64,000 nucleotides of DNA, taken from NCBI RefSeq assembly GCF_030815145.1, contig NZ_JAUSWJ010000001.1:2418001-2482000 (forward strand), given 5' to 3'. Made by a program: the position numbers and the translations under genes. The notes below the pieces were generated by a model that saw only the letters and a list, made by a program, of their open reading frames with translations, was not told where the DNA came from and ran no database searches. Of this stretch, positions 3,044 to 50,029 are shown one piece after another. Positions within the stretch are counted from its first letter, which is position 1. The number at the start of each line of letters is the position of its first letter. The stretch is from Kaistia geumhonensis. GTDB taxonomy: Bacteria > Pseudomonadota > Alphaproteobacteria > Rhizobiales > Kaistiaceae.

Positions 3044-4135
3044 ATGAACGCGCTCACCCAGCTCGAAGCGGAGACGTCGATCGCCCTCGGCGCGCCTGTG
3101 GACGTCACCATCGATGCCGTCGCCAAGGATTTCGGCGATTCGCCGGCCCTGTTCGGCGTGTCGCTCGACGTGCGCGCCGGCGAGCTGGTGGCGCTGCTCG
3201 GCCCGTCCGGCTCGGGCAAGACGACGCTGCTGCGCATCCTCGCCGGACTCGAGGCGCCGTCCTCCGGCCGCGTGCTCTTCGGCGGGGAGGATGCGCTCGG
3301 GCTACCCGTGCAGGACCGCAATATCGGGTTCGTCTTCCAGCACTACGCGCTCTTCCGCCACATGACGGTGTTCGACAACATCGCCTTCGGCCTCACCGTG
3401 CGGCCGCGCGGCTCCCGGCCGCCCAAGTCGGAAATCCGCCGCCGCGTGCTGCATCTCCTCGATCTCGTCCAGCTCACGGGGCTCGAGAAGCGCTATCCGA
3501 CGCAGCTCTCTGGCGGCCAGCGGCAGCGCGTGGCGCTCGCCCGCGCGCTCGCCATCGAACCGCGGCTGCTGCTGCTCGACGAACCCTTCGGCGCGCTCGA
3601 CGCGCAGGTGCGCAAGGATCTGCGCCGCTGGCTGCGCGAGATCCACGACCGCACCGGCCACACGACCTTCTTCGTGACCCACGACCAGGAAGAGGCGCTG
3701 GAACTCGCCGACCGTGTCGTCGTCATGTCGAAGGGCCGGATCGAGCAGGTCGGCTCCGCCGACGACATCTATGACCGGCCGGCCAGCCCCTTCGTCTTTT
3801 CCTTCATCGGCGAATCAACGCTGCTGCCGGTGGTGATCGAGGACGGCGCGGTGACGTTCAGCGGCGATCCGACCGGGCTCGCCGTGAACGAGGCGGAGCG
3901 GCGCGAGGCGGTGCTCGGCTTCCGGCCGCATGACGTGACGCTGGTCGAGGACGGCGCCCCTGCGATCCGCGGCCGGATCGTCGCGACGCGGCGCCATGGC
4001 GGCCGGCGTCGGCTGGAGCTGCAGGTCGGGCCGGATCACCTCAGGGCCGAGATCGATGTCGAGGTCGGCGACGAGCGGCCGCTCGGCACGCTGATCGGCT
4101 TCAGGCCGGAGCGTTGGCGGATCTTCCCGGCCTAG
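3044..4135 (+). CDS. cysA: Sulfate/thiosulfate import ATP-binding protein CysA
   Basis: This 363-residue ATPase powers the sulfate importer. Walker A (GPSGSGKT) lies at residues 53-60, the Q-loop at FVFQHYALF, the ABC signature LSGGQRQR and Walker [13 protein letters not shown] follow, and the H-loop is in [12 protein letters not shown]. The C-terminal third is a TOBE-type regulatory domain. I chose the ATG at 3044, ten bases after the cysW stop and preceded by GAGGTGA, rather than an in-frame ATG inside cysW. Its TAG stop interlocks with the stop of the convergent gene at 4132. Confidence 0.95.
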
Positions 4136-5579: not shown

Positions 5580-7112
5580 TCACGCCTCGATCTCCAGCAT
5601 CCGGCGGCCGCGGCGTCGGCGGCGCACGGGTCGCGGCACCAGGGCGACGAAGGTCACGACCGCCGCCGCGAAGGTGATGCCGCCCGCAATCAGCATGGTG
5701 AGGCGGAAGGCAGTGCCATAGGCGGCGGCGAAGGCCGGCGCCGGGAGGTGCGGCGCCATGCGGGCCGCCTCTTCGAAGGAACCGCTCGCGACGGCGAGCG
5801 CGAGCTCGTCCATCGTCCCGATTCCCGCCGCCGGCAGCGCGCCCGCCACGAAGGCGGCGAGCACGGCGCCGACGACCGCGACCGCGACCGTCTCGCCGGC
5901 GACGCGCATTGTGCCGAAGATGCCGGTCGCCATGCCGGCGCGCTCCTTGGGAACGACGGAGATGGCGAGATCGTCCATCAGGCCCCAGGGAATGCCGGCG
6001 CCGATGCCGGCCAGTGCCAGCGGTGCCATGAAGGCGAGCGGCGCGGCACCTGGCGGGATGGCCGCCAGCCAGACGATGCCCGCCGCCGAGACGAGCAGGC
6101 CCCCCGAGGCCAGCAGGCCGGCCGGGATGCGGCGGGCGAGATGGGCCGCGAGGAAGGGCACGATCGCGATCGGCGCCGACAGCGGCAGGAGCATCAGCCC
6201 GGCCTGCAACTCGCTCATTCCCTCGACCCGCACGAAGCGGATCGGCAGCAGGAAGAGCGGCACGACGAAGGAATAGGCGACCGCAACCGGCAGCGCCTGG
6301 ATTCCGACGAAGCGGGCATAGGTGAAGAGCGACAGGTCCAGCATCGGCCGCGCGACGAGACGCTCGATGGTGATGAAGGCGACGAAGAGGAGGCCCGCGG
6401 CCGCGAAGAGGCCGATCACCAGCGGGTGGCCCCAGCCGAAGGACGGCCCTTCGCTGATGGCGAAGATCAGCGACACCAGCATCGCGGTGAAGCTCGCGGC
6501 GCCGAGCGCGTCGATCCGCGTCGCGTCCGGATCGCGCGTTTCGGACAGGCGTGGCGCTCCGACCGCGAGGATGAACACGCCGGCCGCCGCGGTGGCGAAG
6601 AAGATGGCGCGCCAGCCGAGCGTCGCGATGAGCCCGCCGGCGATGATCGGCCCGAAGGCGATGCCGATGCCGAAGCCGGAGCCGATCAGCCCGAGCGCCC
6701 GCGTGCGCGCCGGTCCCTCGAACTCCTGCGCCAGCGCCGCGAAGCCGGCCGACAGCGCGATGGCACCAGAGACGCCCTGCACGCCGCGCAGGAGATCGAG
6801 CACGAGCACGCTCGGCGCGAAGCCGATGGCCAGCGAGGCGATCGTGAAGCCAGCCATGCCGATCTTGAACATGCGCTTGCGGCCAAACTGGTCGGCGAGC
6901 GCCCCGCCCAGCATGACGCTGGAGCCGACGGCGAGCATGAAGCCCGAGACGATCCAGGTCAGCGCGGCGACGCTGCCGCCGAGATCGGCGCCGATCGCGG
7001 GGATCGCCACCGCCGGGCCGGTGAAGGAGATGGGAATGGTGACGGCGACGAGGAAGATGGCCGCGAGAACGAGCGACTTCTTCCGCGCCGCATCGGGAGA
7101 TGCGTCGGTCAT
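5580..7112 (-). CDS. MFS multidrug exporter, DHA2 (EmrB/QacA) type
   Basis: This 510-residue inner-membrane protein is a proton-coupled drug exporter by family. About 14 hydrophobic segments are visible, with the MFS motif GGALADQFGRKRMF after segment 2 and repeated glycine-rich helices after that. Segment count and length fit the DHA2 14-TM family. The start at 7112 follows GGAAAGA; a further 38 upstream codons are Arg/Pro-rich and unlikely to be translated. It is divergent from a TetR regulator, with matched operators flanking its promoter, so substrate-induced derepression is likely. The drug cannot be named. Confidence 0.88.
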   Translation of the reverse strand: MTDASPDAARKKSLVLAAIFLVAVTIPISFTGPAVAIPAIGADLGGSVAALTWIVSGFMLAVGSSVMLGGALADQFGRKRMFKIGMAGFTIASLAIGFAPSVLVLDLLRGVQGVSGAIALSAGFAALAQEFEGPARTRALGLIGSGFGIGIAFGPIIAGGLIATLGWRAIFFATAAAGVFILAVGAPRLSETRDPDATRIDALGAASFTAMLVSLIFAISEGPSFGWGHPLVIGLFAAAGLLFVAFITIERLVARPMLDLSLFTYARFVGIQALPVAVAYSFVVPLFLLPIRFVRVEGMSELQAGLMLLPLSAPIAIVPFLAAHLARRIPAGLLASGGLLVSAAGIVWLAAIPPGAAPLAFMAPLALAGIGAGIPWGLMDDLAISVVPKERAGMATGIFGTMRVAGETVAVAVVGAVLAAFVAGALPAAGIGTMDELALAVASGSFEEAARMAPHLPAPAFAAAYGTAFRLTMLIAGGITFAAAVVTFVALVPRPVRRRRRGRRMLEIEA

Positions 7113-7237
7113 GGCTTGTCTTTCCGAACTGTCTGAGCCCGCCGCTCGGCGCGGGGGGGGCGATCGAGGGCGCGAAGCGTGCGGCGGGAGAGGGCGCCGC
7201 ACGCTTCGACGGCGGCCGGCCGCCACCGCCGATCCCG

Positions 7238-7348: not shown

Positions 7349-7969
7349 ATGGCAGCCATGGGTGCGCGCGGCAGGCCGCGCGGTTTCGACCGCGCAGCGG
7401 CGCTGGAAAAGGCGATGGAGGTGTTCTGGGCGCGCGGCTATGCCGGGGCGTCGATGGCGGAGCTGACCGAGGCGATGGGCATCAACCCGCCGAGTCTCTA
7501 TGCCGCCTTCGGATCCAAGGAAGAGCTGTTCAAGGAGGCCGTCGGCCTCTACGCCGCGACGGACGACGGCTGCACGCTCACCATGCTGGAAGGCGATCTG
7601 TCGACCCGCGACTCGATCGCGGCGATGCTAATGGCCAGCGCCCGCTCCTGCATGCGGCCCGACAAGCCGTCCGGCTGCTTCCTGATGCTCGGCGCCACCA
7701 ATGGCGGACCGGACACGGATGCGGCGCAGGCCTATCTCTGCGACCGCCGCCGCGACATGGCCGTCCGCATCCGGGCTCGCCTCGCGCGCGGCATCGCCGA
7801 TGGCGAACTGCCGCCCGGCCTCGACCTCGACCGCGTCACCGCCTATTTCGCGACCGTCATCAAGGGCATGTCGATCGAGGCGCGCGACGGCGCCGACATG
7901 GAGACCCTGGCCGGCGTGGCGCGAAGCGCCATGCTCGGCTGGGACGCGATCACATCGACGCAGGCCTGA
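7349..7969 (+). CDS. TetR/AcrR family repressor of the divergent MFS exporter
   Basis: This is a 206-residue TetR-type regulator. Residues about 10-58 form the HTH domain (...FWARGYAGASMAELTEAMGINPPSLYAAFGSKEELF). The rest is the all-helical ligand-binding domain, including the CxRPDKPSGCFLML region seen in AefR/RutR-like subgroups. It is divergent from the MFS exporter, and two matching candidate operators lie in the intergenic region, so I infer that it represses the exporter and probably itself. The start may be the ATG at 7349 or at 7358. The inducer is unknown. Confidence 0.88.
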   Translation: MAAMGARGRPRGFDRAAALEKAMEVFWARGYAGASMAELTEAMGINPPSLYAAFGSKEELFKEAVGLYAATDDGCTLTMLEGDLSTRDSIAAMLMASARSCMRPDKPSGCFLMLGATNGGPDTDAAQAYLCDRRRDMAVRIRARLARGIADGELPPGLDLDRVTAYFATVIKGMSIEARDGADMETLAGVARSAMLGWDAITSTQA

Positions 7970-21558: not shown

Positions 21559-23364
21559 ATGAGCACCGAGCCCTTCGCCAATATCCGCAATTTCTCGATC
21601 GTCGCGCATATCGACCATGGCAAGTCGACGCTCGCCGATCGCCTGATCCAGCTCACCGGCGCCCTCAGCGACCGCGAGATGACCAATCAGGTGCTCGATT
21701 CCATGGAGATCGAGCGCGAGCGCGGCATCACGATCAAGGCGCAGACCGTCCGGCTCGACTACAAGGCGAAGGACGGCAAGTCCTATATCCTGAACCTCAT
21801 GGACACCCCCGGCCATGTGGACTTCGCCTATGAGGTCTCGCGCTCGCTGGCAGCTTGCGAGGGCGCGCTGCTCGTCGTCGACGCCTCGCAGGGCGTCGAG
21901 GCGCAGACGCTCGCCAATGTCTATCAGGCGATCGACAACAATCTCGAGATCGTCACCGTCCTCAACAAGGTCGACCTGCCCGCCGCCGAGCCGGAGCGCA
22001 TCCGCGCCCAGGTCGAGGAGGTGATCGGCATCGATGCCTCGCGCGCCGTGCTCATCTCGGCGAAGACCGGCCTCGGCGTCGAGAACGTGCTGGAAGCGAT
22101 CGTCACCGACCTGCCGGCGCCGAAGGGCGACGCCGGCGCGCCGCTGAAGGCGCTGCTCGTGGATAGCTGGTACGACACCTATCTCGGCGTCGTCGTGCTG
22201 GTGCGCGTCATCGACGGCCGCCTCTCCAAGGGCCAGCGCATCCGCATGATGCGCGCCGGCGCCGCCTACGACATCGAGCGCGTCGGCTTCTTCACGCCGA
22301 AGATGGTCATGGTCGACAGCCTTGGCCCGGGCGAGATCGGCTTCTTCACCGGCTCGATCAAGGAAGTCGCCGATACCCGCGTTGGCGACACCATCACCGA
22401 CGACAAGAAGCCGACTGCCGAGCCGCTGCCGGGCTTCCGTCCAGCGCAGCCGGTCGTGTTCTGCGGCCTCTTCCCGACCGACGCCGCCGATTTCGAGGAA
22501 CTGCGCGCCGCAATGGGCAAGCTGCGCCTCAACGACGCGTCGTTCTCGTTTGAAATGGAGACCTCGGCCGCGCTCGGCTTCGGCTTCCGCTGCGGCTTCC
22601 TGGGCCTGCTGCATCTCGAGATCATCCAGGAGCGGCTGGAGCGCGAGTTCAATCTCGACCTGATCGCGACCGCCCCATCGGTGGTCTACAAGATCACACT
22701 CACCGACGGCACCGAGATGGAGCTGCACAATCCGGCCGACATGCCGGATGTCGTGAAGATCGACACGATCGCCGAGCCGTGGATCCGCGCCACCATCCTG
22801 ACGCCCGACGAATATCTCGGCGCGATCCTGAAGCTCTGCCAGGAGCGCCGCGGCGTGCAGGTCGACCTTTCCTATGTCGGCGCGCGCGCGATGGTGACCT
22901 ACGACCTGCCGCTCAACGAGGTCGTGTTCGACTTCTACGATCGCCTGAAATCGGTCTCGAAGGGCTATGCCTCGTTCGACTACCAGCTGACCGACTACAA
23001 GGAAGGCGACCTCGTCAAGCTGCAGATCCTCGTCAATGCCGAACCGGTCGACGCGCTGTCGATGCTCGTGCACCGATCGCAGTCGGAGCGGCGGGGCCGC
23101 GCCATGTGCGAGAAGCTGAAGGACCTCATCCCGCAGCATCTCTTCGTCATCCCGATCCAGGCGGCGATCGGCGGCAAGATCATCGCCCGCGAGACGGTGC
23201 GCGCACTGCGCAAGGACGTGACGGCCAAGTGCTATGGCGGCGATATCACCCGCAAGCGCAAGCTCCTCGACAAGCAGAAGGAGGGCAAGCGCAAGATGCG
23301 CCAGTTCGGCAAGGTCGACATCCCGCAGGAAGCCTTCATCGCCGCGCTCAAGATGGACGAGTGA
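21559..23364 (+). CDS. lepA: Elongation factor 4 (LepA), back-translocating ribosomal GTPase
   Basis: This is a 601-residue translational GTPase. The G1 motif [10 protein letters not shown]2 [10 protein letters not shown]3 DTPGHVDF and G4 NKVD occur in the first 130 residues, followed by domain II, EF-G-like domains III and V and the LepA-specific C-terminal domain ([23 protein letters not shown] pattern, here [16 protein letters not shown]). Length and sequence are highly typical. The start could be the ATG at 21547 (four residues longer); I chose [15 protein letters not shown], the usual N-terminus. It is monocistronic. Confidence 0.97.
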
Positions 23365-23370
23365 GGCGCA

Positions 23371-23859
23371 TCAGCCCGGAGCCGACGGCCGCTGCCGGGC
23401 CAGCCATTCCGAATAGGGCCTGACTCCGAATTCCGGATTGGGGTCATCGTCGAGGATCGCGATGAACTCGATCGAATGGCCGTCCGGGTCGGCGAAAAAC
23501 TGCGAGAGCGCCGGCATCCAGCCGATCACCTCGGGCTCTGCCGCTCTCTGGCCGGCAAAGTTGAGCGGCTCGACGCCCTGCGCCGCGAGCGCGGCATGCG
23601 AGGCAAGCACGCCCTCCCGTGTCATGGAGAAGGCGATGTGCAGCCGCATTCGGAGCGGCCCGCCGCCGGTTTCCCATAGGCCCAGCATCCCGGTCCTGCG
23701 ATCGTCGACCCAGAAGAAGGCGATCCGTCTTTCCGCGAAAATCCGCGCGAGTTCGAGCCCGACGACGTCGCAATAGAATGCGATCGAGCGCGTGAGGTCG
23801 GCGACGGTCAAATGGGTTTCATAAAGTCCCACAACGGGCGGCATGCGCTTTTCGACCAT
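23371..23859 (-). CDS. VOC (glyoxalase/bleomycin resistance/dioxygenase) family protein
   Basis: This is a 162-residue VOC-fold protein with paired beta-alpha-beta-beta-beta modules: the first at GLYETHLTVADLTRSIAFYCDVVGLEL, the second ending in FFADPDGHSIEFIAIL, whose His and Glu would be metal ligands. The reaction is unknown; lactoylglutathione lyase, dioxygenase and antibiotic-binding functions all use this fold. The ATG at 23859 sits at the edge of a perfect 14-bp hairpin that also contains its ribosome binding site. Alternative starts are the ATG just before it and the ATG at 23844. Confidence 0.83.
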   Translation of the reverse strand: MVEKRMPPVVGLYETHLTVADLTRSIAFYCDVVGLELARIFAERRIAFFWVDDRRTGMLGLWETGGGPLRMRLHIAFSMTREGVLASHAALAAQGVEPLNFAGQRAAEPEVIGWMPALSQFFADPDGHSIEFIAILDDDPNPEFGVRPYSEWLARQRPSAPG

Positions 23860-23892
23860 CATCCTGCCTCTTGGAAAAGAGGCAGGATGATG
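23857..23892 (-). promoter_or_regulatory. Perfect 14-bp hairpin burying the ribosome site and start of the VOC gene
   Basis: Read on the minus strand, CATCATCCTGCCTC, an 8-base loop and GAGGCAGGATGATG form a perfect 14-bp stem. The 3' arm holds the Shine-Dalgarno GAGG and two ATG codons, including the likely start at 23859. No T-run follows, so it is not an intrinsic terminator. It could act as a translational switch in RNA or as a dyad operator in DNA. Confidence 0.6.
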
Positions 23893-23972
23893 CGACCGCA
23901 AGCAATGTTGCCGTCAAGAGCCGATTGCGTGTTCAGCCTCGGCAAGGTGTCGGGACACCCGCCGCCTTGCCC

Positions 23973-24458
23973 TCAATACTGAACCTTGTCGGCCTTCTGC
24001 TGGTAGAGCTTCCAGACTTCGACGGCCTCGGGGCGCATGATCTGCTTGATCTCGATCGAGCGGTCCTCGACCGGCTTGCGCAGCTCCGAATAGATGAAGC
24101 TGTCGTCGAAATTGCCGTATTCGAGGGCGTCCTCGATCTGCGCCGCGTAGAACACGCGCTTGATGCCGGCCCAGTAGGTCGCGGCCATGCACATCGGGCA
24201 GGGCTCGGCGCTGGTATAGAGCGTCGCGCCTTCCAGCTTGAAGCTGCCCTCGGCCTTGCAGGCCTTGCGGATCGCCTCGATCTCGCCGTGCCAGGTCGGA
24301 TCGTTCTCGGCCACGACGCGGTTGGCGCCCTCGCCGATGATCTTGCCGTCCTTGACGATGACGCAGCCGAAGGCGCCGCCGGCGCTGTCTTCAAGCGAGG
24401 TCTTGCGGGAGAGCTCGATCGCCCTCGCCATGTACTTGTTGTCGTCGGTCGCGGTCAC
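23973..24458 (-). CDS. Nucleoside deaminase (guanine/tRNA-adenosine deaminase-like CDA fold)
   Basis: This is a 161-residue zinc deaminase. The catalytic motif is HGEIEAI with the zinc-binding PCPMC (SAEPCPMCMAATYW), as in guanine deaminases of the cytidine deaminase superfamily. The C-terminal FIYSELRKP and YQQKADKVQY endings also match the GuaD subgroup, which releases ammonia from guanine. I chose the GTG at 24458, preceded by AGAGGGA seven bases away; an internal ATG nine codons on lacks a ribosome site. It is a stand-alone gene, 50 bp downstream of the ABM-domain gene on the same strand. Confidence 0.86.
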   Translation of the reverse strand: MTATDDNKYMARAIELSRKTSLEDSAGGAFGCVIVKDGKIIGEGANRVVAENDPTWHGEIEAIRKACKAEGSFKLEGATLYTSAEPCPMCMAATYWAGIKRVFYAAQIEDALEYGNFDDSFIYSELRKPVEDRSIEIKQIMRPEAVEVWKLYQQKADKVQY

Positions 24459-24508
24459 GGTGTTCCCTCTTTCTTTGGAGCGTTCTGGGGAGAATGGCTG
24501 TCCCACGC

Positions 24509-25450
24509 TCAGGGGAGCAGCATGAAGATCGCGATCTCGATCGCGTAAAGGAGAAGGACGGTGGCGAGGCCGAGCGCCTCGCTCCGCCCGCGCTGGTCCG
24601 CAGGCGGCGATAGCCACCAGCCGAGCCCGGCGATCGCGAACCGCATCAGGGGCCAGGAGACCAGCGCGACGCTGATCGCATTGCCGATGAAGGTCGCGAC
24701 CGGCCCCGGCAATGCGGCGGTGAGCGGGCTCAGGAAGCGGATTTCCAGCATGACGACGGGAAAGAGGACCAGCAGCACCAGCATGGTCTGCTTCCATGCG
24801 GCCGGCGGCGGCCTGTCCGGCTCGGCCGGGAACCAGCCCGAGAACGGGCTCAGGCGCCGGCTCTTCCATGTCGAGACTTCCGGATCCGAGCGCTCGAGCA
24901 GCGCCTTGCGCTCGGGCGAGCCCAGCCACCGTTCGAGCTCCTCCTGGGTCGAATAGCGGACCAGCGTCGTCCAGTAGGGCAGCGCCGACGAGACGGGGGC
25001 CTGGACCAGCGTGCCCATATAGCCGGGGAAGAGAGACTGCTTCGCCTGCACGTCGGCGGCCCAGGCCTGGAAGTCCGCCTCGTGGCTCGGCTTGACCTCG
25101 CTCGCGATCACTTCGGTGACGCAAGACAGCGAATGGAAATCCGGCGCCAGCTCGTCGCCGTCGCCCGCTTCGCCATGGACCCGCAGCGCATCCAGCTCGG
25201 CGATGCGCGCGGCGCGATCCGGCGAGCGCTGCCATGCCTCGAGAGAGGCGGCGTCGCGGAAGCGCTGGATGATGCGCCACTCCGCCGATCCGGCGAATTC
25301 GGGCAGGATCTCGATGCTGGCGAAGCCGTCGGCCGTCGCCGCCTCGCGGGTGAAAGCGGCCTGCCAGAGTGCAAAGGCCGACTCGCAGCCCTCCACCAAC
25401 GTGATCTTGGTCATGATCGACGTCGCATGGGTCGAGTTATGCGGCTGCAC
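24509..25450 (-). CDS. Antibiotic biosynthesis monooxygenase (ABM)-domain membrane protein
   Basis: The 313-residue product appears to have two dimeric alpha-beta barrel (ABM-type) repeats in residues about 14-200: RIIQRFRDAASLEAWQRSPDRAARI in the first and TTLVRYSTQEELERWLGSPERKALL in the second. Three hydrophobic segments then fill the last 100 residues (TMLVLLVLFPVVMLEIRFL onward). ABM proteins fused to membrane tails occur in proteobacteria, with no defined role. The start is either GTG 25450, nine bases after GAGGA, or ATG 25414, which has no ribosome site. Confidence 0.7.
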   Translation of the reverse strand: MQPHNSTHATSIMTKITLVEGCESAFALWQAAFTREAATADGFASIEILPEFAGSAEWRIIQRFRDAASLEAWQRSPDRAARIAELDALRVHGEAGDGDELAPDFHSLSCVTEVIASEVKPSHEADFQAWAADVQAKQSLFPGYMGTLVQAPVSSALPYWTTLVRYSTQEELERWLGSPERKALLERSDPEVSTWKSRRLSPFSGWFPAEPDRPPPAAWKQTMLVLLVLFPVVMLEIRFLSPLTAALPGPVATFIGNAISVALVSWPLMRFAIAGLGWWLSPPADQRGRSEALGLATVLLLYAIEIAIFMLLP

Positions 25451-47543: not shown

Positions 47544-48851
47544 TTACTTGAACGCGTAGCCTTCGCCGACCAGACGATCGAGCGTCGCCTGCGCCTTCTC
47601 GGCCACCTGCGCGCCGGTCTGCTGTCCCGCGACGCCGGCCTGGATGCCTTCCTGGAACACGCGCGTGATTTCCGGCGGCCAGTTCCAGTCGAGATAGGTG
47701 ACGAGCCCGTCCGAAAGCTGGATCAGCTTGGCGACGACTGGCGTGTCGCTGCCCTTCACGGCAGTATTGACCGGCACCGTGCCGCTATTGACCTTGACGA
47801 CCTCGGCATTCGCCTCGTTGCTGGTCAGCGCATTCACGAGCGCCAGCGCCGCGGCCCTGCGGTCTCCCTCGACCTTGGCCGGAACGCCAAGCACCGCCGC
47901 CGGTCCGCCGGGGAACTGCGAGCGGACATCGCCGCCGACGAGGTTCGGCATCAGCATCACGTCGAGATCGACGCCTTCCGGCTTCGCCGAGAGAATCTGC
48001 TGGATCAGCCCGTCATGCTGCAGGAAGAAGGCGGCCTTGCCCGAGGCGAATTCCGCGACGGCATTCGGCGTATCCAGCGAGAACACCGAGCGGGTCACGA
48101 GCTCGTCCTTGCCGAAGCGGAAGACGAGGTCGAGGCCGTCCACGACGTCCTGGTCGGTGAACTTGCCCTTGCCGGTGAGGATCTCGATCGTCCGCTCGAT
48201 CGAGCGGTTCTTCGAGGTCTGGGCGAAGGTCGTGAAGAACCAGACCGGCCACAGATAGATGTTCTTGCCGGGATGGGTAAAGGTCTTGATGCCCTCCGCC
48301 TTCAGCTTGTCGCGGATGGCGAGGAAATCGTCGTAGCTCTTCGGTTCGGAGAGCCCGTTCTTCTCGAGCAAAGCACGGTTGTAGAAGATCGGGAACCCGC
48401 CATACCAGCCATAGGGGACGCCGAACTGCTTTCCGTCCACCACGCCGGTGGCGAGCGCGGCGGGCGCGAAGCGGGCGGTGTCGCCGACGAGGCCGTCGAG
48501 CGGTCCAAGCGTCCCGTCGACCGCATAGCGGCGCAGGTCCTGGCCGTTCAGCATCAGCATGTCGACCGGCTCGCCGGCGGCGAGCGAGGCCGTCAGCAGC
48601 GCGACGAAGCGCTCCGACGGATATTCCGTGGTCTTGATGGTGATGCCGGGATTGGCGGCTTCGAAGGCGGCGAGAATCGCTCTGTAGGCCTGGTCGGGCG
48701 GCGTGCGCTGCAGGCTGACGATGTTGAGATCACCCTTATAGGCGAGCGGCTCTGCGGCGCCGGCCTGGCGGGCGAGGAACGGAGACAAGGCAGCGCCGGC
48801 GAGTGCCGCACTGCCGACGAGATAGCTACGGCGGGTTATCCTCAAGGTCAC
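47544..48851 (-). CDS. Sugar ABC transporter substrate-binding protein (CUT1, family 1)
   Basis: This is a 435-residue exported binding protein. The N-terminus MTLRITRRSYLVGSAALAGAALSPFLARQAGA is a twin-arginine-like signal (TRRSYLVG). The mature protein has the extracellular solute-binding family 1 features (ANPGITIKTTEYPSERFVALLTASLAAGEPVDMLMLNGQDL, later GKAAFFLQHDGLIQQILSAKPEGVDLDVMLMPNL). The sugar is not identifiable. Its ATG lies inside the 3' end of lacI (26-bp overlap). Confidence 0.9.
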   Translation of the reverse strand: MTLRITRRSYLVGSAALAGAALSPFLARQAGAAEPLAYKGDLNIVSLQRTPPDQAYRAILAAFEAANPGITIKTTEYPSERFVALLTASLAAGEPVDMLMLNGQDLRRYAVDGTLGPLDGLVGDTARFAPAALATGVVDGKQFGVPYGWYGGFPIFYNRALLEKNGLSEPKSYDDFLAIRDKLKAEGIKTFTHPGKNIYLWPVWFFTTFAQTSKNRSIERTIEILTGKGKFTDQDVVDGLDLVFRFGKDELVTRSVFSLDTPNAVAEFASGKAAFFLQHDGLIQQILSAKPEGVDLDVMLMPNLVGGDVRSQFPGGPAAVLGVPAKVEGDRRAAALALVNALTSNEANAEVVKVNSGTVPVNTAVKGSDTPVVAKLIQLSDGLVTYLDWNWPPEITRVFQEGIQAGVAGQQTGAQVAEKAQATLDRLVGEGYAFK

Positions 48852-49995
48852 GGGTTTCCTCCCTTGGCGTTTCTGGCATTTCCTCGATGCGAGCGGTTTT
48901 CCGCTTCTTTCCCGGGCGCTGCCCGGTCTCGGCCGGCTGCTGCCGGCAAGGTCCTGTCGACTGGCGGGCCATCAGCGTCGCCGCCAGCCAGACATTGCGA
49001 TCGGAAGCCGGCTCCGATGGTCCGGCTGCCAGCTGCTCGATCAGGGCGGTCATCGCGGCGGCGCCCATGTCGTAAAGCGGCTGCGAGACCGTGGTGATCG
49101 ACGGCTGGAATACGCGCGCGAACGGGATGTCGTCGTAGCCGACGACCGACACGTCGTCCGGGACGCGGCGGCCGTTGCCCTGCAGCCAGGCGATGGCGCC
49201 CATGGCCGCGAGATCGTTGGCGGCGATGATCGCCGTCGGCGCGTCGTCCATCGCCATCAATTGCTCGGCACCCCTGCTGCCGCATTCCATGTCGAAGCCC
49301 CCCGGCACGATCAGCGCCGGATCAAGGGGGCGGCCCAGCGTCGCGAAAGCGGTCTGGAAATCGCTGATGCGCTCGCGGCTGACGATCATGCCCTCGGGCG
49401 GCGCGATGATGCCGATGCGCCGGTGGCCGAGATCGAGAAGATGCTGCGCGGTGGCAAGCACGGCGGCACGGGCATCGACCATGATCGAGGTGACGGGCAT
49501 GCCCTGGCGATGCTCGCCGAACAGGACGATCGGCACGTTGCGGCGCGCCAGCGCCAGAATCTGGCGTTCGATCTCGGGGCTCGATTCCATGATGCCCGGC
49601 GCGGCGATCAGGCCGGAGGCATGGTTGGCGCGGATGAAGCCGAGATAGTCGAGCGCCTTCTGCTCTTCATAATCGTCGTTGCAGAGAAAGAGGCCATGAC
49701 CGGAGCGCCGCGCGACATCCTCGACGCCCCGTACCAGTTCGGGAAAGAACGGGTTGGTGATCGAAGGGATGATCACGCCGATCATCGGATTGCGATAGCC
49801 GCGCAGCGTGCGCGCATGCTGGTTTGGCTGATAGTCGAGCTCCTGCATCACGGCCCGCACGCGGCGCCGGGTCTCGTCCGAAATGCCGGCCCGATCGTTC
49901 ACCACCGCAGATACGGTCTGGATCGACACGCCGCAAGCGCGGGCGATGTCGGCCATGGTGGAACTGACGGGCTGCTTCGGCATGGAGACCTGCAT
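48826..49995 (-). CDS. LacI family repressor of the sugar operon
   Basis: This is a 389-residue LacI-type regulator. The HTH (STMADIARACGVSIQTVSAVVNDRAGISDETRRRV) is followed by the hinge and a periplasmic-binding-protein-like sensor (MIGVIIPSITNPFFPELVRGVEDVARR). About 45 extra charged residues at the C-terminus (RPGKKRKTARIEEMPETPREETR) overlap the start of the binding-protein gene; normal LacI proteins end near 340. It is the first gene of its own operon. Two ATGAACGTTCAT palindromes cover its start, so autorepression released by the sugar is likely. Confidence 0.9.
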   Translation of the reverse strand: MQVSMPKQPVSSTMADIARACGVSIQTVSAVVNDRAGISDETRRRVRAVMQELDYQPNQHARTLRGYRNPMIGVIIPSITNPFFPELVRGVEDVARRSGHGLFLCNDDYEEQKALDYLGFIRANHASGLIAAPGIMESSPEIERQILALARRNVPIVLFGEHRQGMPVTSIMVDARAAVLATAQHLLDLGHRRIGIIAPPEGMIVSRERISDFQTAFATLGRPLDPALIVPGGFDMECGSRGAEQLMAMDDAPTAIIAANDLAAMGAIAWLQGNGRRVPDDVSVVGYDDIPFARVFQPSITTVSQPLYDMGAAAMTALIEQLAAGPSEPASDRNVWLAATLMARQSTGPCRQQPAETGQRPGKKRKTARIEEMPETPREETRDLEDNPP

Positions 49996-50005
49996 GAACG
50001 TTCAT
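49994..50005. promoter_or_regulatory. LacI operator O1 over the lacI start
   Basis: ATGAACGTTCAT is a perfect 12-bp palindrome with the central CG typical of LacI-family operators. It overlaps the ATG of lacI on the minus strand. Confidence 0.75.
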
Positions 50006-50017
50006 ATGATGCTTCAC

Positions 50018-50029
50018 ATGAACGTTCAT
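50018..50029. promoter_or_regulatory. LacI operator O2 in the operon promoter
   Basis: A second exact copy of ATGAACGTTCAT extends to a 14-bp palindrome, CATGAACGTTCATG. Its centre is 24 bp from that of O1. A good minus-strand -35 box, TTGACT, lies at 50033-50038, so O2 falls within the promoter spacer, ideal for repression. Confidence 0.75.

Follow-up and report, generated by a model that had tools for sequence, protein, structure and literature searches.

The VOC locus and its neighbours

The window analysed here is a stretch of 64,000 nucleotides from Kaistia geumhonensis, a genome that groups in the genus of Kaistia dalseonensis. On its minus strand lies a gene of the VOC family (glyoxalase fold; Pfam PF00903, E 2.8e-10) at 23371-23862, with 163 codons counted from the first ATG. 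When starts are compared, the second ATG (23859) aligns with the starts of the Kaistia orthologues. The protein is 72, 70 and 67% identical to three orthologues. The gene is flanked by lepA, which is convergent with it, and by a co-directional deaminase-like gene upstream (23973-24458, minus strand), for which the best NCBIfam match is TadA at 75 bits, under the model cut-off of 150. The stop of the deaminase-like gene is 55 nt from the promoter-like box described below, and this gene is a possible source of RNA reading through into the VOC gene.

Of the 14 genomes of the genus that were searched, a close orthologue of the VOC gene was found in three, one of them the window's own. One genome (G013) is 95% identical to the window in the end of lepA and in the deaminase gene, and 85% over a longer stretch of 2.9 kb. 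It has no VOC gene at the matching locus, where 42 nt separate the stops of lepA and the deaminase gene; this convergent spacer (L158:2092-2133) holds a GC-rich hairpin. In another genome (G007) the VOC gene is near lepA with another gene between them, and an inverted pair, ATCCCGGCGAAGGCCGGGAT / ACCCCGGCCTTCGCCGGGGT, resembling a repetitive palindromic element, lies upstream of the VOC gene (L159, roughly 3580-3700). A search of genome contigs gave 58 VOC orthologue loci, mostly from Rhizobiaceae.

A perfect inverted repeat at the start of the VOC gene

The start of the VOC gene lies in a perfect inverted repeat at 23857-23892, with arms (23857-23872 and 23877-23892) that are 16 bp long and 100% complementary, and a loop of 4 nt (23873-23876). 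The original prediction had described a perfect 14-bp hairpin with an 8-nt loop; the hairpin is real and beyond chance, but its size was underestimated because the two innermost pairs were missed. As had also been stated, the 3' arm, which reads AAGAGGCAGGATGATG on the minus strand, contains the Shine-Dalgarno (SD) sequence (AAGAGGCAGG) and both ATGs of the VOC gene. The 5' arm runs from a predicted -10 hexamer to just past a predicted transcription start.

The repeat is unique in the genome. In 1 Mb of simulated first-order Markov sequence with the same dinucleotide make-up, no perfect repeat with a loop of 3-10 nt exceeded 13 bp. A 400-kb sample of the window's genome contains three perfect repeats of at least 14 bp (14, 15 and 17 bp), all terminator-like with A/T-rich stem ends. 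Across the 4.59-Mb genome the exact 14-mer of the arm is confined to this repeat, and no second site for the 24-base core was found there at up to three mismatches. At the same threshold a single weak match turns up in each of two of the 13 other genomes of the genus, a yield not above that of a reversed control pattern. Compared with shuffled sequences, the fold of the window leader has a z of -7.35. An intrinsic terminator was rejected, as a T run after the stem is absent on both strands, and no terminator-like site was found in 23300-24600. A repeat family or mobile element was also rejected, since the arm is unique in the genome and the leader spacing is near that of relatives.

Other palindromes occur elsewhere in the window. 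Another perfect inverted repeat, of 14 bp around an 8-nt loop, at 7173-7208 overlaps the first codons of an ORF that by eye looks like an MFS transporter (5580-7226, minus strand) and precedes one that looks like a TetR regulator (7349-7969, plus strand). Two copies of the palindrome ATGAACGTTCAT, with starts 24 bp apart (49994-50029) and perhaps forming a tandem operator, lie at the start of an ORF that by eye resembles a LacI-type regulator (48826-49995, minus strand).

The presence of the ribosome binding site (RBS) and start codon within a stem would suit an RNA thermometer or a ligand-gated switch, and melting by temperature was among the mechanisms first suggested. The RNA hairpin has a computed energy of -27.4 kcal/mol at 37 C and is computed to be fully paired even at 85 C, with no melting in the physiological range; on this computed stability an RNA thermometer was ruled out. 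In 23300-24600 six Rfam matches have E values of 1 or less, none of them scoring anywhere near its gathering threshold, and the short leader probably leaves little room for an aptamer. We therefore regard a thermosensing or ligand-gated switch as extremely unlikely.

The dyad was also proposed to be a DNA operator; it might serve a dimeric regulator overlapping the start site. Repressor sites are commonly near the transcription start, and the centre of the dyad is near the predicted one. However, operators usually have less symmetry than 16 perfect pairs, the genome offers no second site within the mismatch limit given above, and both arm sequence and loop length differ among orthologue leaders. 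Because these vary between lineages, a sequence-specific operator seems very unlikely.

A degenerate SoxR-type promoter box

Directly upstream of the VOC gene is a degenerate SoxR-type (MerR-type) box, TTGACGGCAACATTGCTTGCGGT (23895-23917, minus strand), which has three mismatches at 17 fixed positions and includes a -35-like TTGACG (23917-23912). A predicted -10 hexamer, CATCAT (23887-23892), follows this after 19 bp, in the same place as in the orthologue boxes, so that the 19-bp spacer of SoxR-type promoter geometry (TTGACG-19-CATCAT, counted on the sequence) is present. CATCAT also forms the first six bases of the hairpin 5' arm. Because it serves as the -10 of the box, the predicted transcription start, which promoter geometry places about 7 nt further on at 23878-23882, falls inside the repeat.

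When scored with a 34-wide matrix built from the orthologue boxes, the window box ranks first of 127,932 window positions at 20.6 bits, the next scoring -3.7, and in 400 kb of the window's genome one of 799,932 positions equals or beats it. It retains the TTGAC, the dyad and the 19-bp spacing, and two of the three changes mirror each other across the half-sites. In relatives the dyad of the SoxR-type box (CCTCAA-N6-TTGAGG), between -35 and -10, is intact or nearly so. A genome-wide search with the altered half-sites, TTGACNGCAA-N6-TTGCNGT, found the window site as the only match without mismatch, and matches with two mismatches were at control level. A single SoxR match in the window's genome (4395338-4395754) exceeds the TIGR01950 cut-off, and a box follows closely on its 3' end. 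We infer that the window copy may be under activator control; given the three mismatches, SoxR may not act there.

Boxes with at most three mismatches of 17 lie upstream of 40 of the 58 orthologues. The other 18 loci include 15 of the Rhizobium tropici/rhizogenes kind or from Rhizobiales near them; at the three of these that were inspected (L036, L053 and L061) the VOC start seems, by eye, to overlap the end of the upstream frame. A larger set comprised 73 orthologue loci and the window. From this 21 loci were left out: 20 without a box within three mismatches in the 220 nt before the match (150 nt searched at L088) and L038, which has a box but for which an in-frame start was not found. This left 52 of the 73 orthologue loci with a box and usable start; with the window added, the distinct leaders number 48, as certain loci come from one genome present in two collections (for example, L200 and L203). 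L194 and L199, from genomes already in the set, and one of seven plasmid matches (H6) were excluded, and the leader of L033 was cut at an upstream ATG.

Pairing between the start segment and the ribosome binding site

Comparison of orthologous leaders, which had been suggested as a check, gave a mixed outcome: the repeat as a sequence is absent, while pairing of the same two places recurs with different letters. The perfect repeat of the window is found in none of the 58 orthologue leaders. Perfect repeats in the 90 nt that precede the match are at most 9 bp long at these loci, and those of 9 bp are the box itself. On folding, many orthologue leaders nevertheless form a stem that covers the SD sequence (nine of 39 with p below 0.05 when compared with shuffled sequences; the mean z is -0.91). 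In 16 lineage groups, the window not among them, pairing of the -10/start segment with the RBS of the same lineage has an energy of -11.0 kcal/mol, compared to -8.0 kcal/mol when partners are swapped. This advantage was reached by no permutation in 25 draws of 2,000 or 20 draws of 5,000. The lineage groups were set by eye by the analyst, and the pairing pattern had been noticed before it was tested.

Control segments mostly lacked this advantage. The median p was 0.74 for a segment upstream of the box, 0.99 for a coding segment, 0.87 for the 5' segment with coding sequence and 0.18 for the reversed 5' segment. Three shuffles of the 5' segment kept 0.4, 0.9 and 0.7 kcal of the 3.0 kcal (median p 0.28, 0.04 and 0.11), and this is the share due to composition. 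In a position scan the advantage peaks at box+24 to +45 (|t| 2.7-3.6, 11-12 of the 16 groups) and is absent upstream of this. With three strong groups removed the median p was 0.0014, and for the six long-leader groups alone it was 0.06. The advantage is little or nil in L073, L075, L195, L202 and Devosia A. In a comparison of the three Kaistia leaders, that of K. dalseonensis has a 5' segment that pairs better with the RBS of the window (-14.3 kcal/mol) than with its own (-11.8 kcal/mol). Covariation within clades was not significant (Agrobacterium p 0.11, Rhizobium p 0.21); since significance is lacking inside these two large clades, the evidence for pairing is evidence between lineages.

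Absolute pairing energies are common in random genes. The control consisted of the 125 of 377 ORFs with an SD sequence in a single GC-rich genome, that of the window, and at three spacings 37-62% of these genes reached -11 kcal/mol with no own-pair advantage. The signal is therefore the difference between own and swapped partners, not the absolute energy. In the window itself the pairing is -28.9 kcal/mol, and the random-gene minimum at the same spacing was -22.3 kcal/mol. The window repeat seems to be the most extreme instance of this recurring pairing.

Other genes with SoxR-type boxes show the tendency less strongly. In 14 families of non-VOC box genes, own pairs had -12.8 and swapped pairs -11.2 kcal/mol (median p 0.02, worst draw 0.29), after four of 40 rows with doubtful starts were dropped. 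Tested singly, a family of about 483 codons gave p 0.017, and three other families gave p 0.12, 0.79 and 0.59. The about-483-codon gene is found in the genus at L109, L111, L112, L118, L121 and L126, and its start-site segment pairs with the RBS or start codon (for example, TGTCGGC with GCCGACA). In G002, G005 and G011 a soxR-like ORF lies just upstream of it on the same strand and the pairing reaches -16.8 to -19.5 kcal/mol; at L111, L118 and L126 the soxR-like ORF upstream is on the same strand. A lock on read-through RNA would make sense at a gene in such a position. Nearly the arms of the window recur at L225 (G309) in another gene with a SoxR-type box, with CATCATCCTGCTTC near the -10 and AAGCAGGAGGAGATGATC at the start codon; its N-terminus is unlike that of the VOC gene.

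Accessibility of the ribosome binding site

The hairpin was originally described as burying the RBS, and this holds for RNA with both arms, in which the computed cost of opening the window RBS is about 26-31 kcal/mol. It does not hold for the gene's own mRNA if the predicted start is right, because the promoter-like box places the start inside the 5' arm and this mRNA would lack most of the hairpin. The computed cost in the window falls from 26.3 kcal/mol for RNA starting at box-10 to 6.9 kcal/mol for RNA starting at box+37, the predicted site (about 7-8.5 kcal/mol overall). The mean of the 16 groups falls from 8.5 to 4.3 kcal/mol between the same starts, and the cost drops in all 16. In 90 random genes of the window's genome the change was from 9.0 to 8.3 kcal/mol at a spacing of 58 and from 9.1 to 8.1 kcal/mol at a spacing of 72, and none of the 90 had a drop of at least 15. 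These controls are the first 90 SD-bearing starts of one GC-rich genome, in which shortening the RNA also lowers the cost somewhat.

The pairing might instead serve to damp expression: an anti-SD stretch at the 5' end of the mRNA made from the gene's own promoter would form a hairpin that lowers the translation of every transcript. The Agrobacterium group, L196 and L071 retain much of the RBS cost with starts up to box+35, and in the Agrobacterium group the 5' arm, at about +4 to +11 after the -10, may be partly in the mRNA. There is also a precedent in the account of Bacillus subtilis sigG, where a 5-bp hairpin (-6.2 kcal/mol) cuts translation 2-4-fold (PMC5942855). However, the arm is largely before the predicted start in the window, Rhizobium, K. 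dalseonensis, Pelagimonas (L076) and Neorhizobium (L201) groups, in all five of which the cost has fallen by box+35 to +37, and if the mRNA of the gene itself carried all 16 bp of the stem, silencing would be the expected result. This suggests that damping is an unlikely function for the repeat.

Rough ORF tiling places a divergent soxR-like ORF just upstream in K. dalseonensis, in two Devosia and in some members of the Agrobacterium group, so read-through there would need another source. Judged by eye, no clear relation was found between lock strength and the orientation of the neighbour, in a tiling rough enough to have picked a false ORF for the window itself.

Origin of the perfect repeat

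The leader of K. dalseonensis contains a quasi-palindrome, GTCTTGCGTT-TCC-AACGAAAGAC, with nine of ten pairs, seen by eye and also on folding. Its TTTCCAA centre is the same as in the window and lies at a nearly equal distance from the box. From box to ATG the window has a spacing of 55 or 58, close to the 59-60 of four relatives (two Kaistia, two Devosia), which fits a quasi-palindrome converted in place better than an inserted repeat. The perfect 16-bp form probably arose, or at least may have arisen, by template switching from an existing quasi-palindrome, on the evidence of one genome.

Template switching also offers a reading in which the repeat has no function, the left arm being an inverted copy of the RBS region left by replication, with damage to the promoter. 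The perfect identity, the 4-nt loop and the uniqueness of the repeat in the genome are all consistent with this, as are the degenerate box and a spacing that indicates substitution. The absence of the VOC gene from this place in G013, so similar in the flanking genes, points the same way. Against this, other lineages show pairing at the corresponding two places although their sequences differ, and the VOC protein is well conserved; we consider a functionless by-product improbable.

A proposed translation lock

Our preferred reading, in which we place about even confidence, is that the repeat acts as a lock on translation which the promoter divides in two: RNA begun upstream would be blocked, and RNA begun at the gene's own promoter freed. 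The SoxR-type promoter, with its box, -10 and predicted start site, lies immediately ahead of the VOC gene. Of the two arms, the 5' one would span the -10 and the start of transcription, and the 3' one the SD sequence and start codon. RNA arriving from upstream, either by read-through from the deaminase-like gene or from leaky starts, would contain both arms and fold, and in the cell ribosomes would be blocked. RNA from the gene's own promoter would be without most of the 5' arm and so translatable.

We also speculate, with considerable doubt, that SoxR-type promoters in Hyphomicrobiales and Rhodobacterales often bear an anti-RBS arm split by the start site, such that only activator-initiated mRNAs are translatable. 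It is equally tentative that this leak-proofing is kept by pairing, not by sequence, and that it extends beyond the VOC gene. If true, there would be a class of redox-responsive promoters with protection from read-through built into the promoter itself, in which the DNA that places RNA polymerase would at the same time code for an antidote to transcripts that are not wanted. Estimates of expression based on transcript counts alone would then be misleading for such genes. The pairing rule would be testable across genomes, and the arrangement could provide a compact, leak-proof switch for circuit design.

Comparison with known systems

In IS10, the transposase is protected from outside transcription: its RBS is masked by sequences at the end of the element when the RNA comes in from outside, and only then. 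The VOC locus resembles this in that the RBS would be hidden in outside-started RNA; it differs in being a chromosomal gene, with no transposon features evidently part of the locus. On the promoter side, mfsA of Stenotrophomonas maltophilia has TTGACC, a 19-bp spacer and a -10 of CATGCT, with a SoxR box between -35 and -10, and its authors describe the role of the 5' UTR as unknown and the RBS as poor (PMC4411124). The 19-bp spacing and a -10 starting with C are shared with the window (CATCAT); the differences are that the sections of the mfsA report drawn on here describe no RBS hairpin, and that the window box is degenerate. Read-through transcription in Vibrio is the subject of PMC10971746. 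Among the papers listed in the literature searches, the titles and openings of abstracts mention no RBS-hiding arm at SoxR or MerR promoters, the nearest case being that of sigG (PMC5942855).

In the account of sigG, read-through RNA from an upstream operon is proposed to be kept from translation by a large hairpin of 20 or more pairs; RNA begun at the sigG promoter itself cannot form this hairpin and has a second, small RBS hairpin (PMC5942855). The likeness is in a lock on read-through RNA that is released in own-promoter RNA. The difference is in the setting, a sigma-factor gene with a sigma F/G promoter in a Firmicute as opposed to a VOC gene with a SoxR-type promoter in Alphaproteobacteria. 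On our preferred reading, the repeat at the VOC start would resemble the read-through locks proposed for sigG and IS10, here on a SoxR-type promoter.
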